Shown here: one piece after another, positions 3,273 through 9,166 of the stretch
Layout of the letters: the number at the start of each line of letters is the position of its first letter
How positions within the stretch are numbered: position 1 is the stretch's first letter
Origin: Sphingomonas anseongensis
Lineage (GTDB): Bacteria; Pseudomonadota; Alphaproteobacteria; Sphingomonadales; Sphingomonadaceae
DNA: 64,000 bases
Assembly (NCBI RefSeq): GCF_023516495.1
Contig: NZ_JAMGBC010000001.1
Coordinates: 806,001 to 870,000 of the forward strand
Direction of reading: 5' to 3'
The notes under the pieces: model-generated
Told to the model about the DNA's origin: nothing
The model's input: the letters and a program-made list of their open reading frames with translations, nothing else
The model's database searches: none
Program-made: the position numbers and the translations under genes

Positions 3273-3896
3273 TCAGCCCTGCTGGTTGGCGCGCTCTGCT
3301 CCATTCCCGTCGAGGTTCTGGGCCACGAAATCCCAGTTGATGATGTTCTGCAGGACGCTCTTGAGGAACCTCGGCCGCTCGTTGCGGTAATCGATGTAAT
3401 AAGCGTGCTCCCACACATCGACCGTCAACAACGGGGTCATCCCATGGACGACCGGTGTGTCGGCGTCGTGGAGCGAAGTGACCTCCAGCTTGCCATTGTT
3501 CAGCACCAGCCAGCCCCAACCGCTCGCGAAATGGTTGGCGCTTTCGGTCTGGAGCGCCTCGAGCAGCGCGTCATGGCCGCCGAAATCGCTGTCGATCATT
3601 TCCTTCAGCTTGCCCGACGGTGACGTCGAGCCTTCGGGGGCCAGGCACTGCCAGAAGAAGCTGTGGTTCCAGATCTGGGCACTGTTGTTGAACAGGCCCT
3701 TGTCGCCCTTGTCCTTGCCGGCGCGGATCACCTCGATCAGCGAGGCGCCCTCGAGCCCCTTCTCCCCCAGCATCCCGTTGGTCTTGTCGACATAGGCCTT
3801 GTGGTGCTTGCCGTAGTGATAGTCGAACGTCTCGCTCGACATGTGGGGCTGCAGCGCGTCACGCGCATACGGCAGTTCGGGAAGCTCAAAGGCCAT
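3273..3896 (-). CDS. sodB: Superoxide dismutase, Fe type
   Basis: Converts superoxide to oxygen and hydrogen peroxide; 207 aa, no signal peptide, so cytoplasmic. Metal ligands are recognisable: the His in YHYGKHHKAY, the His in IWNHSFFW, and Asp/His in DVWEHAYYIDY. The Gln in SAQIWNH is the position typical of Fe enzymes. AAGGAG precedes the ATG at 3896 (bases 3905-3910). It runs convergently against the ABC permease and lies directly downstream of pspF on the same strand. Confidence 0.96.
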   Translation of the reverse strand: MAFELPELPYARDALQPHMSSETFDYHYGKHHKAYVDKTNGMLGEKGLEGASLIEVIRAGKDKGDKGLFNNSAQIWNHSFFWQCLAPEGSTSPSGKLKEMIDSDFGGHDALLEALQTESANHFASGWGWLVLNNGKLEVTSLHDADTPVVHGMTPLLTVDVWEHAYYIDYRNERPRFLKSVLQNIINWDFVAQNLDGNGAERANQQG

Positions 3897-3976: not shown

Positions 3977-5026
3977 CTAACGCGAGCCGGCGTCCAGCAG
4001 CTTGTGGCGCTTCAGCGCGTGGCGCAGCTGGTCGTAGCTGAGCCCGATCGCGGCAGCGGTGGCGCGCTGGTTGTAGCGGTTCGCCCGCAGCGCCTCCTCG
4101 AGAAGCGCGCGCTCGTACGAATCGACGGAAGAGCGGAAATCTTCGGTCTCCAGCGACGGCTGAGGCGGCGCCGCTTCCTCAACATGCGCTTCCGCAGCCG
4201 AATCGACCGGTGCGGGAGTCGCCGCAGCTACAGCGGTCGCCGGCTTGGGAATCCACGGCGAATCGAACGGGTCAAACTGGATCGAATCCACGGGGCGTTC
4301 GGGGTCTTCCCAGCGATAAACCGCACGTTCGGCAACATTGCGCAATTCGCGCACATTGCCGGGCCAGGGATAGCGCTCCATCTCGGCCATCGCCTGCTCG
4401 CTGAAGCCCGGCCAGTTGGTCCAGTCGAGCTCCACGGCCATGCGGCGGCCGAAATGCTCGGCGAGAAGCGGGATGTCGCCGCCGCGGTTGCGCAGCGGCG
4501 GAAGGGTGATCACCTCGAAGCAGAGACGGTCGAGAAGGTCGGCGCGGAACCTCCCCTGCTCCACCAGGGTCGGCAGATGCTCGTTGGTCGCGGCAACGAT
4601 TCGGACGTCGACCGAAATGGGCTTGGAGGCGCCGATCCGGGTGACCTCGCCATATTCGGTGGCGCGGAGCAGACGGTCCTGCGCAGGCGCCGACAGGGTC
4701 GCAAGCTCGTCGAGGAACAGGGTCCCGCCGTCGGCTTCCTCAAAACGCCCGTGACGCGTCTTCGCCGCTCCGGTAAAGCTACCCGCTTCGTGCCCGAACA
4801 GCTCCGCCTCGATGAGATTCTCCGGAAGCGCCGCGCAGTTCATGACGACCAGCGGCCCGGACCAGCGCGGGCTCAGGTGGTGGAGGCGCTCGGCGACGAG
4901 CTCCTTGCCGGTCCCGCGCTCGCCAATGACCAGCACCGGCCGGTTGAGCGCGGCGGCACGGCTGGCGCGCTCGATCGCGTCGAGAACGGCGTTGCTTTGG
5001 CCGACGAAAGTTTCAGTACGTTCCAT
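3977..5026 (-). CDS. pspF: PspF, sigma-54 activator of the psp operon
   Basis: AAA+ enhancer-binding protein that activates sigma-54 RNA polymerase at the divergent psp promoter. From the ATG at 5026 it is 349 aa with no N-terminal receiver, as in other PspF proteins, which are controlled by binding PspA. Seen: Walker A GERGTGKE, a sigma-54 contact loop reading GSFTGA (canonical GAFTGA), Walker B GGTLFLDEL, arginine-finger region RFRADLLDRL, YPWPGNVREL, and a Fis-type helix-turn-helix at the end (ATAAAIGLSYDQLRHALKR). An Ala/Pro-rich linker joins the AAA+ and DNA-binding domains. The frame is open for 40 more codons upstream, but that stretch runs through the operator and has no family resemblance. 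Confidence 0.93.
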   Translation of the reverse strand: MERTETFVGQSNAVLDAIERASRAAALNRPVLVIGERGTGKELVAERLHHLSPRWSGPLVVMNCAALPENLIEAELFGHEAGSFTGAAKTRHGRFEEADGGTLFLDELATLSAPAQDRLLRATEYGEVTRIGASKPISVDVRIVAATNEHLPTLVEQGRFRADLLDRLCFEVITLPPLRNRGGDIPLLAEHFGRRMAVELDWTNWPGFSEQAMAEMERYPWPGNVRELRNVAERAVYRWEDPERPVDSIQFDPFDSPWIPKPATAVAAATPAPVDSAAEAHVEEAAPPQPSLETEDFRSSVDSYERALLEEALRANRYNQRATAAAIGLSYDQLRHALKRHKLLDAGSR

Positions 5027-5052
5027 GTCTCTCAAATCTGGCCGACTGTTGG

Positions 5053-5074
5053 TGCCAAATACCACGAATTGGCA
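5053..5074. promoter_or_regulatory. Candidate PspF upstream activating site (inverted repeat)
   Basis: Arms TGCCAA (5053-5058) and TTGGCA (5069-5074) form a perfect 6-bp inverted repeat. It lies about 67-88 bp upstream of the -24/-12 element and 27 bp upstream of the pspF start. This is the normal distance for an enhancer-binding-protein site and would also allow pspF self-control. The assignment to PspF is inferred from position. Confidence 0.5.
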
Positions 5075-5140
5075 AGATATTTCGCTCCGTTGAACGGCGG
5101 ATTTGAGCGATTTTTTGAGAAGTCCGGCATTTTCGGAAAG

Positions 5141-5156
5141 TGGCACGTCTCCTGCA
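5141..5156 (+). promoter_or_regulatory. Sigma-54 (-24/-12) promoter of the psp operon
   Basis: TGGCACGTCTCCTGCA matches the sigma-54 consensus TGGCACG-N4-TTGCW at all but one core base, with the required spacing between the GG and GC doublets. It lies 46 bp upstream of the pspA start, directly downstream of the divergent gene for a sigma-54 activator. Motif, position and neighbour agree. Confidence 0.88.
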
Positions 5157-5202: not shown

Positions 5203-5874
5203 ATGAGTATCTTCTCCCGGACGCGGGACATCTTCGCCGCGAACATGACCGAGCTTCTCGACCGCGCGGAGGATCCGGCGCGGATGATCCGGATGATCAT
5301 CCTCGAGATGGAAGAGACCTTGGTCGAGGTTCGCGCAAGCGCCGCCAAGACGATTGCCGACGGCAAGGACATGCGGCGCACCCTCTCCCGCCTCGACGAG
5401 CTCCAGAGCAGCTGGACCGAGAAGGCCGAGCTGGCGCTCAGCAAGGGCCGCGAGGACCTAGCCAAGGCGGCGCTGCTTGAGCGGCAGAAGGCTGCCGACA
5501 TGGCGGAGGGGCTCAAGGAGGAGATCGCCGTCCTCGACGAGACCCTGAAAGCCTATGAGGCGGATATCGCCAAGCTTCAGGGCAAGCTCCGCGAAGCGCG
5601 GGTCCGGCAGAATGCGATCGCTCACCGAATCGAGAGCGCTGTCACGCGCGCCAAGGCCCGCGAGCTGGTCAACGGCAACCGCACCGAGGATGCGTTCAGC
5701 CGCTTCGAGGTCCTGGAGCGCCGCGCGGACTTCGCCGAAGGCCGTGCCGAGGCGCTCGGGATGACCGGTCCCAAGAGCCTCGAGGAAGAGATCGCCGACC
5801 TGCAGTCTTCCGACAAGGTAGATGCGGAACTGGAAGCCATGAAGGCCGCGCTGGCGGCTAAGGGGACTAAATAA
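5203..5874 (+). CDS. pspA: Phage shock protein A
   Basis: Peripheral membrane ESCRT-III-like protein that binds damaged inner membrane and, when free, inhibits PspF. It is 223 aa, almost wholly helical and charged, with the amphipathic opening FSRTRDIFAANMTELLDRAEDP followed by long coiled coils (RASAAKTIADGKDMRR onward) and an acidic end. It is the first gene after the sigma-54 promoter. The pspB start shares one base with its stop. Confidence 0.96.
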   Translation: MSIFSRTRDIFAANMTELLDRAEDPARMIRMIILEMEETLVEVRASAAKTIADGKDMRRTLSRLDELQSSWTEKAELALSKGREDLAKAALLERQKAADMAEGLKEEIAVLDETLKAYEADIAKLQGKLREARVRQNAIAHRIESAVTRAKARELVNGNRTEDAFSRFEVLERRADFAEGRAEALGMTGPKSLEEEIADLQSSDKVDAELEAMKAALAAKGTK

Positions 5875-6173
5875 TGGAAGAGGCAGTCATTCCGCTGTTC
5901 GCGGTCGCGATCCTGTTTATCGGGCTTCCGTGGCTGATCTTCCACTATGTGACCAAATGGAAATCGGCGGCTACCCTGACCGGCGCCGATGAGAAGCTCC
6001 TGGACGAGCTTCACGACATGGCTCGCCGGCTCGACGATCGGCTGTGCACGATCGAGCGGATCATGAACGCGGAAAACCCCAACTGGCAGCAGGCCTGCCT
6101 GCCTGACGCCGGAACGCCCCTGGTGGACGATGTGCTGACCAGCACGCGTTCGAGGCGCGGAGAGAAGGCATGA
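5874..6173 (+). CDS. pspB: Phage shock protein B
   Basis: A 99-aa membrane protein with one N-terminal helix (IPLFAVAILFIGLPWLIFHY) followed by a cytoplasmic coiled coil reaching RLDDRLCTIERIM. In the enterobacterial system PspB and PspC relieve PspA inhibition of PspF. It carries about 25 residues beyond the usual PspB end (PNWQQACLPDAG onward). It shares one base with pspA and four with pspC. The LxxRLxxIERI stretch recurs in each of the five following products. Confidence 0.9.
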   Translation: MEEAVIPLFAVAILFIGLPWLIFHYVTKWKSAATLTGADEKLLDELHDMARRLDDRLCTIERIMNAENPNWQQACLPDAGTPLVDDVLTSTRSRRGEKA

Positions 6174-6559
6174 GCACGCAGCCTCCCAGCCGGACCAAAT
6201 TTTACCTCGACAAGCGCCATGGCAAGGTCATGGGCGTGTGCGCCGGACTGGCCGATTACACCGGCTTCGACGTCACTCTGGTCCGGATCCTTCTGATCCT
6301 GGGCGTTTTCATGGGCGGCGGCGCTCTGATCCCGGTCTATTTCATCACCGGATGGGTGGCGCAGGACCGGCCCCGCGAGCTGGCGGACAGCGACCCTGAA
6401 GAAACCAAGTTCTGGCAGGGAGTCCGCCAGTCACCTTCCCGCAGCGCCCGCGACATCAAGTCACGGTTCCGCGACATCGATCGCCGGCTCGCCCAGATCG
6501 AGCATTATGTAACCATCGAAAACCGGTCGCTCGCCCGCGAGATCGAGCAGCTTCGCTAG
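6170..6559 (+). CDS. pspC: Phage shock protein C
   Basis: A 129-aa PspC-domain membrane protein. The family opening FYLDKRHGKVMGVCAGLADY is followed by a hydrophobic helix (VRILLILGVFMGGGALIPVY) and GWVAQDRP. The C-terminal half is a charged helix ending LAQIEHYVTIENRSLAREIE, which matches the tails of the four small proteins encoded next. A 35-base gap separates it from the next gene, the largest gap within this operon. Confidence 0.94.
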   Translation: MSTQPPSRTKFYLDKRHGKVMGVCAGLADYTGFDVTLVRILLILGVFMGGGALIPVYFITGWVAQDRPRELADSDPEETKFWQGVRQSPSRSARDIKSRFRDIDRRLAQIEHYVTIENRSLAREIEQLR

Positions 6560-6594: not shown

Positions 6595-6939
6595 ATGGAT
6601 CCCCAACTCGGCCAGATCTTCAATTTCATCATGGCTATCATGCCATTCCTTGCGATCATCGTCGTTGCCGGGGTGGGAGGAACCGCTTTCAGCACATGGC
6701 TGAAGATCAGGAACGGCTATCCGCTCTCAACGTCCTGGGGAATCCCGCTCCACCCCAAGACGGACCAGGAGGCAGTCGAGAGAATCAAGCTTCTCACAAC
6801 CGAGAATGCGCAGCTTCGCGCCGAGGTCGGATCGCTGAAGGACCGGCTCGAGACCGTAGAGCGGATCATCACGGATGAGCCGCACCGGCTTGCCCGGGAG
6901 ATAGACTCCTTGTCGCTCGACAAAGGCGGCCGCGCATGA
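6595..6939 (+). CDS. PspB-like small membrane protein, copy 1 of 4
   Basis: A 114-aa protein of unknown function. One N-terminal transmembrane segment (IMPFLAIIVVAGVGGTAF) is followed by a coiled coil and the tail LETVERIITDEPHRLAREID. That tail aligns with PspC (IEHYVTIENRSLAREIEQL) and with PspB (IERIM). A short insert (LSTSWGIPLHPK) follows the helix and is absent from the other copies. The next gene overlaps by four bases. It is probably part of the psp operon and would insert with a cytoplasmic coiled coil. Confidence 0.8.
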   Translation: MDPQLGQIFNFIMAIMPFLAIIVVAGVGGTAFSTWLKIRNGYPLSTSWGIPLHPKTDQEAVERIKLLTTENAQLRAEVGSLKDRLETVERIITDEPHRLAREIDSLSLDKGGRA

Positions 6940-7223
6940 TGGGGCCGGGAGAAGTTTTCGTCGCGCTAATCGTCGTCGGCCTGCCCATCATGTTCCTGAT
7001 GTTGCTGGGCCACCGCTTCTTCAAATATCGCGAGAAGCAGCTCGACGTCGAAGCGCGGCTGGCAGCCGAGAAAGCGGCGCAATATGCGTCGCGTTCGATG
7101 GAGCTCGAGCAGCGCGTCCGGGTACTGGAGCAGATCGTTACCGACACGGGGGCGCAGACCGCCGGCCAAATCGAGGCGCTCCGCGACTTCCAGCGGCTCC
7201 CGGACGGAGAAAAGACGAAGTGA
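6936..7223 (+). CDS. PspB-like small membrane protein, copy 2 of 4
   Basis: A 95-aa protein with an N-terminal helix (VALIVVGLPIMFLMLLGHRF), a charged Ala/Glu coiled coil, and the shared tail motif VRVLEQIVTDTGAQTAGQIE followed by ALRD. It is closest to copy 3 in its tail (IVTDxGAxTAxQIEALR). It is overlapped by four bases at both ends. Function unknown; the association with pspABC suggests membrane-stress sensing or scaffolding. Confidence 0.8.
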   Translation: MMGPGEVFVALIVVGLPIMFLMLLGHRFFKYREKQLDVEARLAAEKAAQYASRSMELEQRVRVLEQIVTDTGAQTAGQIEALRDFQRLPDGEKTK

Positions 7224-7495
7224 ACGCCTTCGAATTCGTCCTTGCGCTCGCGATCATCGTGTTCGCTTTCACCGTCATCAGGCACAAGATGGGCATTCCC
7301 GCGCGGTCGATGAAAGAGATGCGCGAAGGGACGAGCGACGACGCGGAGACCCAGCGGTTGCGGAGCCAGGTCAAGCAGCTTCAGGAGCGGATCAACATCC
7401 TCGAACGGATCGTCACGGACCGCGGTGCGGACACTGCCGCCCAGATCGAGGCGCTCCGCGAACGCGACCGGATGGCCGAAGGAGACGAAGGGTGA
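7220..7495 (+). CDS. PspB-like small membrane protein, copy 3 of 4
   Basis: A 91-aa protein starting at GTG, which overlaps the previous stop as GTGA. An N-terminal helix (FVLALAIIVFAFTVIRHKM) is followed by a coiled coil and the tail INILERIVTDRGADTAAQIE, then ALRERDR. The tail is nearly identical in pattern to copy 2, suggesting that these two are the most recent duplicates. Function unknown. Confidence 0.8.
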   Translation: MNAFEFVLALAIIVFAFTVIRHKMGIPARSMKEMREGTSDDAETQRLRSQVKQLQERINILERIVTDRGADTAAQIEALRERDRMAEGDEG

Positions 7496-7746
7496 TGGAA
7501 GGCGGGCAGTTGATGGTAGTCCTGATCGTTGCGATCGTCATGGTCGCGTCGATCATCAGGGCGAAATACGGCTACTCCCGCCGTGGCCGTTCGAACGAGG
7601 GCATTTCACCTGAAGAGCGCGCCGAAAACCTGCGCCTGCGCGACGAGGTGAAGGAGCTCAAGGAGCGCCTGAAGGTGCTGGAACGCATCACCGTCGAGAA
7701 GGAAAACAGCCTCTCACGGGAAATCGACGGTCTTCGCGACCGCTGA
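7495..7746 (+). CDS. PspB-like small membrane protein, copy 4 of 4
   Basis: An 83-aa protein, start ATG sharing one base with the previous stop (TGATG). The N-terminal helix is LMVVLIVAIVMVASIIRAKY. The coiled coil ends in LKVLERITVEKENSLSREID and GLRDR, with the EN-SL-REI pattern closest to the PspC tail (ENRSLAREI). It is the last gene of the run; sufE follows after about 40 bases. Confidence 0.78.
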   Translation: MEGGQLMVVLIVAIVMVASIIRAKYGYSRRGRSNEGISPEERAENLRLRDEVKELKERLKVLERITVEKENSLSREIDGLRDR

Positions 7747-7786
7747 GGCGCTGGCAGAGACTCGAAGCGCTGCCTATGTGGAGCGC

Positions 7787-8200
7787 ATGCCTCTTCCGCC
7801 CATCAGCGAGATCCTCGACGACTATCAGTTCCTCGACGGCGAGGACCGCTACCGGCTGCTGATCGAGCTTGGCCGCAAGCTCGAGCCGATGCCCGAGGCG
7901 CTCAAGACCGACGCGACCAAGGTCAGGGGCTGCTCGGCGTCGGTGTGGGTCTATCCGACACGAACAGACGATGGGCGGCTTCACTTTCTCGCCGACAGCA
8001 ACGCGGCGATCACCAAGGGCATCGTCGCGCTCGTTCTTTCGGCTGTCCAGGACAAGCCGGCGGCGGAGGTCGCGCGAACCGACGTCGCCGCCCAGCTGGC
8101 GCCGTTCGAGCTGTCGCGGCACCTGAGCGCGAACCGCACTCAGGGCGTGCCAAATATGATCCAGCTGATCCGGGAAACAGCGCAGCGGCTCGCAGCATGA
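7787..8200 (+). CDS. sufE: SufE-family sulfur acceptor protein
   Basis: Accepts sulfur from the cysteine desulfurase SufS for Fe-S cluster assembly. From the ATG at 7787 it is 137 aa; an in-frame GTG at 7778 would add three residues. The acceptor Cys is in KVRGCSASVWVY and the family end is SANRTQGVPNMI. It overlaps the thioesterase gene by four bases (ATGA). The rest of the suf operon is not in this window. Confidence 0.92.
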   Translation: MPLPPISEILDDYQFLDGEDRYRLLIELGRKLEPMPEALKTDATKVRGCSASVWVYPTRTDDGRLHFLADSNAAITKGIVALVLSAVQDKPAAEVARTDVAAQLAPFELSRHLSANRTQGVPNMIQLIRETAQRLAA

Positions 8201-8631
8201 ACGAGCAGCCGGCACCGGGCTTCGATCCCAAGGCGTTCTTCGAGCTTGCAAGGCGGATCGGCCACGGCCGCGCGCTAGGGCTGGAGTTCAAGGGCGCGGG
8301 CGACAACTGGGCAGAACTGGCGCTTCCCTGGCGGGAAGAGCTCGTCGGGGTCCCGGAGACCGGCGTGCTGGCGTCTGGAGCGATCGTCAGCCTTGTCGAC
8401 ACCGCGAGCGGCACCTCGGTCTGGGTCACGCTCGACCGCTTCACGCCAATTGTGACGGTCGACCTGAGGCTCGATTACCTGCGGCCCGCGCTCAAGGGCG
8501 AGACGATCGTCGCCCGCTGCGAGTGCGTGAAGGTGACACGGCGGATCGCGTTCGTCCGCGGAGTCGCCCACGGCGGCGATGAATCACGGCCGATCGCGCT
8601 CAGCGCGGCGACCTTCATGATCAATCGGTAG
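8197..8631 (+). CDS. PaaI-family thioesterase (hotdog fold)
   Basis: A 144-aa single hotdog domain. The helix with the catalytic region is TGVLASGAIVSLVDTASG, and the strand region TVDLRLDYLRPALKGE is typical of PaaI/YdiI acyl-CoA thioesterases. The ATG overlaps the sufE stop. Its last 11 bases overlap the convergent J-domain gene. The acyl substrate is not predictable. Confidence 0.85.
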   Translation: MNEQPAPGFDPKAFFELARRIGHGRALGLEFKGAGDNWAELALPWREELVGVPETGVLASGAIVSLVDTASGTSVWVTLDRFTPIVTVDLRLDYLRPALKGETIVARCECVKVTRRIAFVRGVAHGGDESRPIALSAATFMINR

Positions 8632-9166
8632 AGCCGAGCGCCAACCGCCTGTCTTCGGCTGCTTTCAGGACGTCATAGGCCGCCTGGATCTCGCGAAAGC
8701 GCGCCTCAGCTTCCTTGTCACCCTGCTTCAGGTCCGGATGGTGCTGCTTTGCCAGCTGGCGATAGGCGGCCCGAATGGTCTTGAAGTCGGCATCCGGTTC
8801 AAGCTCCAGGACCGACAGCGCCCGCATCTCGTCGCGGCTGCGGGTCTCGTCGCCGGGACCCGCCCAGCCCCAGTGTGCCGAGCTTCGGAACCCGTTCGCG
8901 CCGTTCGCTTCTTCGGCCGCACGCCTGGCCGCTTCTTCGGGGCTCAGGCCGGCGAAGTAATTCCAGTTCTTGTTATATTCGCCGGCGTGGCGTTCACAAA
9001 AGTACCAGCGCTCCGGGCTGTTCGGAGCCTTTGGAGCCGGGCGATCGCCGACCTCGTTGCAGCCCTCACGGTCGCACAGGCGAATGCGCGCGGCGTTGCG
9101 CCCGGTCTTGCCGTAGGAACGCCAGCGCGGGAATCCCCAGTCGTCCGATCTTGTCTGCTTCGCCAT
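8621..9166 (-). CDS. J-domain protein with N-terminal Cys/His-rich region
   Basis: A 181-aa cytoplasmic DnaJ-class co-chaperone. The J domain is at the C-terminal end (about residues 115-178): LSVLELEPDADFKTIRAAYR, then KQHHPDLK with the essential HPD. The N-terminal 70 residues contain CDREGC and YFCERHAGEY, a possible metal-binding CX4C...CX2H pair, followed by NKNWNYF. The inverted layout with no G/F or zinc-finger repeats makes it a type III J protein. It presumably works with DnaK; client unknown. Confidence 0.85.
   Translation of the reverse strand: MAKQTRSDDWGFPRWRSYGKTGRNAARIRLCDREGCNEVGDRPAPKAPNSPERWYFCERHAGEYNKNWNYFAGLSPEEAARRAAEEANGANGFRSSAHWGWAGPGDETRSRDEMRALSVLELEPDADFKTIRAAYRQLAKQHHPDLKQGDKEAEARFREIQAAYDVLKAAEDRRLALGSTD

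Follow-up and report, generated by a model that had tools for sequence, protein, structure and literature searches.

When the putative zipper (77–98) of E. coli PspC is mutated, the protein is reported to lose its interaction with PspA, and the zipper is reported to be necessary for induction (PMC3068692). Of three PspC fragments, only 40–119 interacted with PspA (PMC3068692). On which side of the membrane does this region lie? An earlier topology had placed the C-terminus of E. coli PspC in the periplasm and the authors argue for two topologies (PMC3068692), so that a cytoplasmic tail is unsettled even for PspC itself.

How many such proteins does one psp operon hold? An earlier note on this DNA had supposed that known psp systems have a single PspB. 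That is too narrow, since PspB duplicates within psp operons are already published (PMC11237479, 2024; example AOL22920.1). The sections consulted of PMC9239133 (2022) contain no such array as the one described below. Nor, supplements aside, did our searches on psp in Sphingomonas and Sphingomonadales and on PspB paralogues in Alphaproteobacteria turn up a multi-class array or a portable tail. Here we describe a psp operon that continues into a row of one-helix proteins with the end of PspC. Such a row suggests that one stress response is fed by several membrane receptors.

The psp locus

The window, that is the whole stretch of 64,000 nucleotides that was analysed, comes from a genome of 2.2 Mb. 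It contains a complete psp locus in which pspF is divergent from pspA, pspB and pspC, each of the four exceeding its NCBIfam cut-off.

3977..5146, minus strand: sigma-54 activator gene pspF, oriented divergently to the operon (TIGR02974 475.6 bits, cut-off 443.55)
5141..5156, plus strand: sigma-54-type promoter-like site TGGCACGTCTCCTGCA, one mismatch to consensus, preceding pspA
5203..5874, plus strand: pspA (TIGR02977 259.2 bits, cut-off 242.95)
5874..6173, plus strand: pspB (TIGR02976 76.6 bits, cut-off 51.7; PF06667 82.6 bits)
6170..6559, plus strand: pspC (TIGR02978 124.4 bits, cut-off 104)
6452..6556, plus strand: C-terminal tail of PspC, homologous to the array tails (hhalign, alignment A5, tail-profile search)
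6595..6939, plus strand: O1, class a, 114 aa, one-helix tail protein
6817..6918, plus strand: O1 tail (alignment A5)
6936..7223, plus strand: O2, class b, 95 aa
7086..7190, plus strand: O2 tail (alignment A5)
7220..7495, plus strand: O3, class g, 91 aa, GTG start, class-b-type tail
7358..7465, plus strand: O3 tail (alignment A5)
7495..7746, plus strand: O4, class g, 83 aa
7627..7734, plus strand: O4 tail (alignment A5)
7778..8200, plus strand: sufE, directly after the array (PF02657 123.2 bits)

The earlier note had placed four genes after pspABC, and its coordinates, lengths and overlaps are all correct. O1 begins 35 bp after the stop of pspC; O1/O2 and O2/O3 overlap by 4 bp and O3/O4 by 1 bp. 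A SufE-like ORF is the usual right-hand neighbour of the array, being found in 71 of 80 loci (a sample of the 137 Sphingomonadaceae loci, mostly one per genus). On the minus strand of the window, 3273–3896 and 8621–9166 encode an Fe/Mn superoxide dismutase and a DnaJ-domain protein.

Are the seven genes expressed together? The gene overlaps and the single sigma-54-like site predict that they are likely to be. Scored against the sigma-54 consensus, TGGCACGTCTCCTGCA is the sole such site on either strand between 3900 and 9000 when up to two mismatches are allowed. A PspF-like frame is divergent from pspA in 75 of the 80 loci. The strict sigma-54 motif occurs upstream of pspA in only 8/80, and the relaxed motif in 13 of the 75 loci having PspF; on these counts a conserved site was dropped as proof of co-regulation. 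Zymomonas pspABC is reported to be up under ethanol (PMC3495753); ZMO1066, the next locus tag downstream and the sole downstream tag searched, was not found in the literature retrieved.

Relation of O1–O4 to PspB and PspC

What are the four proteins? Judged by sequence, each begins with a single membrane helix, continues through a juxtamembrane segment specific to its class and closes with a helix whose end is the PspC tail. O1–O4 are old, diverged paralogues of the PspB and PspC membrane components, situated in the psp operon. At 27.2 bits, O4 passes the gathering score of PF06667 (PspB; 25.6 bits), below which lie O3 (23.4), O2 (15.3) and O1 (12.0). All miss the TIGR02976 equivalog cut-off of 51.7 (O3 28.7, O4 23.4, O2 15.5, O1 10.6). 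The PspC domain PF04024 has no match in O1–O4 at E up to 1, and in O1 positions 83–121 of TIGR02978 are matched at 14.3 bits.

Profiles of 22–74 proteins per class were compared by hhalign with 80 PspB, 61 PspC and, as controls, 30 each of FtsB and AtpF, with the following results.

Class a: PspC 96.1%, PspB 85.1%, FtsB 5.8%, AtpF 0.5%
Class b: PspC 74.7%, PspB 92.6%, FtsB 57.8%, AtpF 1.1%
Class d: PspC 93.3%, PspB 71.6%, FtsB 45.6%, AtpF 8.7%
Class e: PspC 66.5%, PspB 2.6%, FtsB 6.7%, AtpF 7.8%
Class g: PspC 87.8%, PspB 52.9%, FtsB 8.1%, AtpF 27.0%

The alignments to PspC cover its last 28–38 columns (the last 35 for class a, the O1 type). The margin of PspC over the controls is wide for a, g and e, less for d, and narrow for b, at 74.7% against 57.8% for FtsB. 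PspB and PspC themselves reach only 47.5% with one another, so the array proteins bridge the two. Class T, which is absent from the window, matches neither PspB (2.6%) nor PspC (0.4%), and stands at 92–96% against the other array classes. The earlier note had held that six successive products share the tail. This stands for O1–O4 and PspC; PspB has only the first half (LERI), as the note itself had said.

By sequence, no relative of PspB or PspC was found in the PDB (best E 0.19 and 0.81). The model of O1 (mean pLDDT 86, pTM 0.37) consists of a helix (3–40), a loop and one continuous helix (57–111). With pLDDT 71 and pTM 0.34 the model of PspC is too weak for a superposition.

Where would the tails lie? 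In each of O1–O4 a strong N-terminal hydrophobic stretch is followed by net positive charge. Of 283 proteins, counting T and those of the window, 242 have more positive charge after the helix than before it. By the positive-inside rule, the positively charged flank of a membrane helix faces inside. Because of this charge pattern, we infer that the array tails are cytoplasmic. The hydrophobicity and charge pattern of O1–O4 would be compatible with the arrangement of PspB, a single N-terminal membrane helix with a cytoplasmic C-terminus.

Specificity of the tail

Is the tail simply generic coiled coil? The hhalign values alone are insufficient against this, because FtsB still reaches 58% with class b and 46% with class d. 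A tail-only profile of 16 rows and 36 positions was made from the five window tails and 11 from other loci (L034, L036, L045, L091, L177, L181, L182, L187, L192, L380 and L381). The 12 whole genomes searched with it were that of the window, ten more from its family and one further genome of its order; at E up to 0.001 the profile matched 64 times. Sorted by position, with doubtful ones read individually, these matches are 44 array proteins, 12 PspC, 3 second PspC, 3 zinc-ribbon-like proteins and 2 proteins in genome G551 (one in-operon member and one orphan). Training rows account for five of the six matches in G000 and for one each in G145, G042, G647 and G634. By position, all 44 one-helix matches lie at a psp operon, in 11 Sphingomonadaceae genomes. 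Among the 64 matches there are no unrelated coiled coils, no T proteins and no PspB.

Together, the FtsB and AtpF controls and the 12-genome search rule out a generic coiled coil. The earlier note had named that outcome as one that would overturn it; the profile and control comparisons did not produce it. Its family of parallel one-helix proteins sharing the PspC tail is borne out by hhalign and by the tail search, and its reading as a whole in part.

Classes, gene order and age

How old are the array genes? In a FastTree tree of 316 sequences, including a sample of 28 PspB, seven clades (hand-picked at support of at least 0.8; observed 0.81–1.0) take 304 of the sequences. They comprise five array classes, T and PspB. 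The class a clade, to which O1 belongs, has one copy in each of 54 loci, the window among them; that of class b (O2) has 74 proteins from 59 loci, again including the window. Distinct juxtamembrane motifs are conserved in the classes (NGYPLe..WG, AkHGYplEdeW, aekAAqya).

Where two classes occur together, d precedes a in 27/29 pairs, a precedes g in 36/37, b precedes g in 37/37 and b precedes e in 33/33; e and g never occur together. A fully fixed order is contradicted by d and b (d first in 25 of 38) and by a and b (a first 26 times, b first 27). From the clades and the partly fixed order it follows that the array genes are old and separately kept. The spread of the class clades over many loci and different genera rules out recent lineage-specific duplication. 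Some extra copies look recent, such as the two class-b genes of locus L075, whose tails are 94% identical and whose N-terminal parts are 27% identical. Between same-genus relatives dN is 0.23–0.46 and dS 0.95–1.43, a rough figure since dS is near saturation; purifying selection appears to act on the genes.

Distribution

The earlier note had it that known psp systems show no such array. Within the family, however, an array is the usual condition. PspB is matched in 137 of 149 Sphingomonadaceae genomes, and 1–7 extra genes follow psp in 78 of the 80 sampled loci, two being without a detected array gene. The number of extra genes is 0 in 2 loci, 1 in 6, 2 in 3, 3 in 29, 4 in 19, 5 in 15, 6 in 4 and 7 in 2. 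The counts come from a profile seeded from the sampled loci; they include T, which is undercounted, and a few entries (e.g. L109) are fragments or over-long frames. By its own profile T is found in 48/59 genomes, in 46 of them within about 3 kb of pspB (by eye). A second T-class protein was seen at L377:2182-2418 (G046), with no psp gene within the 6 kb fetched. In the genus, all of 41 genomes have 2–6 matches to the profile of the array family, a few of these being zinc-ribbon-like proteins. The closest relatives of O1 (best 80 of 529) are in records that bear the names Sphingomonas, Sphingomicrobium, Sphingopyxis or those of further sphingomonads; a few are given only as Alphaproteobacteria or Proteobacteria.

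How far beyond the family does it extend? In the class-wide sample 8 of 385 genomes have matches, five of them Sphingomonadaceae; G336 and G430 gave two weak matches in frames of more than 400 codons. Across the order, matches occur in 91 of 118 genomes; 35 of these belong to the family, and the remaining 56 have one or two matches apiece. Sixteen stretches from 13 genomes of the order (L176–L191) were looked at closely. In five (L178, L180, L184, L189 and L190) the psp operon runs pspA, pspB, pspC, a short PspC and then a member of the tail family; in the other 11 there is no psp gene within the 11–13 kb fetched. Among these, a single orphan tail protein is encoded directly after a primary sigma-70 gene in L177 and in L185; others lie next to dut and coaBC (L176) or to a GAF protein (L186, L187). 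At three loci pspC and the tail protein are separated by a second, short PspC, which has about 80 aa and is itself without the tail.

L178:5936-6190: short second PspC
L180:6224-6466: short second PspC
L184:6040-6276: short second PspC

The tail on other proteins

On C1 of the host genome, at about 1,539–1,541 kb on the minus strand (L336/L378), there is a second psp-like operon, pspA2-pspC2-T; no pspB was found in the stretch read around it. Its pspC2 ends in the same psp tail. Second PspC proteins with the tail are found in G000, G053 and G619, comparable loci being L376 (G053; pspA-pspC-T) and L443 (G619; pspC2). The tail also ends three zinc-ribbon-like proteins, two in G647 and one in G634, which lie far from psp in the same genomes (L379:2960-3346, L380:2430-2816 and L381:2587-3075). 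They have no obvious membrane helix by eye, and their match to DUF6487 is weak (E 0.0006 and 0.013, both below cut-off; none for the third).

Do tails move between proteins? In the window, and likewise in L387 (G657), the membrane module of O3, IRHKMGIPARSM, is joined to a tail of the class b type, but in L382 (G619) to one of the class g type; a g-type tail also follows a more distant module in L395. Full-length relatives of O3, with 66–73% identity including the tail, occur in G628, G658, G660 and G654. We read this as a swapping of tails between membrane modules, in few cases. One module with two tail types is what would be expected if the tail were an interchangeable docking part. In two genomes of a further family of the class (L192:3826-4314 and L193:3563-4052), pspC is followed by two one-helix genes that differ in their ending, which is of the PspC type in one and of the PspB type in the other; these mixed endings lend independent support to tails as modules. 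General homogenisation of tails within genomes is weak only, at an identity of 0.389 against 0.383 for shuffled labels (reached by 10 of 300 shuffles); the N-terminal parts have no within-genome excess (30/60 shuffles).

Possible function of the array

What might so many one-helix proteins do? We favour, at a probability of about 0.55, a set of parallel receptors or anchors that share one docking tail, most likely for PspA. The tail would dock PspA in the cytoplasm, as reported for the zipper region of E. coli PspC. Through their different membrane parts, several receptors or anchors could answer different membrane conditions, and all would draw on one PspA pool; that they do so is suggested because the array tails are homologous to the end of PspC. 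PspA drawn to the tails might in turn release PspF, as a signal, and be held at the damaged membrane, as an effector. If the numbering is in step, the match of O1 to positions 83–121 of TIGR02978 would overlap the E. coli zipper. Nothing in the data points to PspF, which the earlier note had offered as another docking partner. What the sequences show is homology, the membrane helix, conservation and the place in the operon; PspA binding, the tail inside, different stimuli and common induction are all points that we infer. Weighed against this reading are the poor match of classes e and T to PspB (2.6% each) and of T to PspC, the FtsB value of class b (57.8%), the loose order of a and b, the strict sigma-54 motif in 8/80 loci and the 2/80 loci without an array. 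The partner, moreover, need not be PspA, because relatives outside psp operons and zinc-ribbon-like proteins carry the tail.

Might the tails instead bind one another, together with PspC and PspB? They would then form a hetero-oligomeric scaffold of coiled coils within the membrane, and its make-up would tune PspC. The continuous tail helix of the O1 model and the retention of several classes within one operon are compatible with such a scaffold, as is the report that E. coli PspB self-associates and binds PspC via membrane regions (PMC3068692). We nevertheless think it rather unlikely, since the reported partner of the E. coli PspC zipper is PspA (PMC3068692) and the tail is also found on proteins without an obvious membrane helix. 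If PspA is the partner, the array could still consist of effectors and not of sensors, namely surplus anchors that distribute PspA across the membrane and have no signalling role. The proteins are short, with a few residues at most ahead of the membrane helix, and their genes follow the signalling genes within one operon; yet the distinct juxtamembrane motifs conserved in the classes exceed what a plain anchor would need, and we regard this as improbable. Very improbable, in our estimate, is that the operon captured a family which bears the tail, is independent of Psp and docks some other partner. The zinc-ribbon-like proteins would fit a capture, as would those members from the order's other families for which the fetched stretch contains no psp gene. 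Against it, PspC and the second PspC have the same tail, and 44/44 one-helix tail matches in the 11 Sphingomonadaceae genomes lie at a psp operon.

Returning to parallel receptors with a PspA-docking tail, a bolder version can be put forward only tentatively. Sphingomonads may possess a multi-receptor Psp system with up to about seven one-helix receptors, varied in their membrane parts and alike in the tail, which soluble zinc-ribbon-like proteins and the PspC of a second pspA-pspC operon would carry too. PspA would then act as a hub that is reached through one exchangeable peptide module.

It is an old and open question which signals PspB and PspC sense, and how a single system can respond to many membrane stresses. 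A set of paralogues with a common tail and varied membrane parts makes the question of sensing testable by part swaps. The conserved tail, common to proteins of quite different build, is in addition a candidate for the minimal PspA-binding peptide.

Comparison with known systems

Like PspB (PF06667/TIGR02976), O1–O4 have one N-terminal membrane helix, a basic juxtamembrane part and a coiled coil with the LERI motif. However, they lack the ending of PspB, which in the window's copy reads ENPNW, and run on into a second half of the PspC type. With the end of PspC (TIGR02978) they share the pattern RL..VE..VT..N..LA.EI..LR; in contrast to PspC, they are without the PF04024 domain and have just one membrane helix. 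The extra PspB-like genes of PMC11237479 also lie in the psp operon and are probably the same phenomenon, although the section consulted names neither their number nor any classes, tail or lineage. The same paper's divergent PspB, which is fused to PspC (PMC11237479), likewise indicates that a PspB-like segment can follow PspC, but in the locus described here the corresponding proteins are encoded by separate genes, several to an operon.
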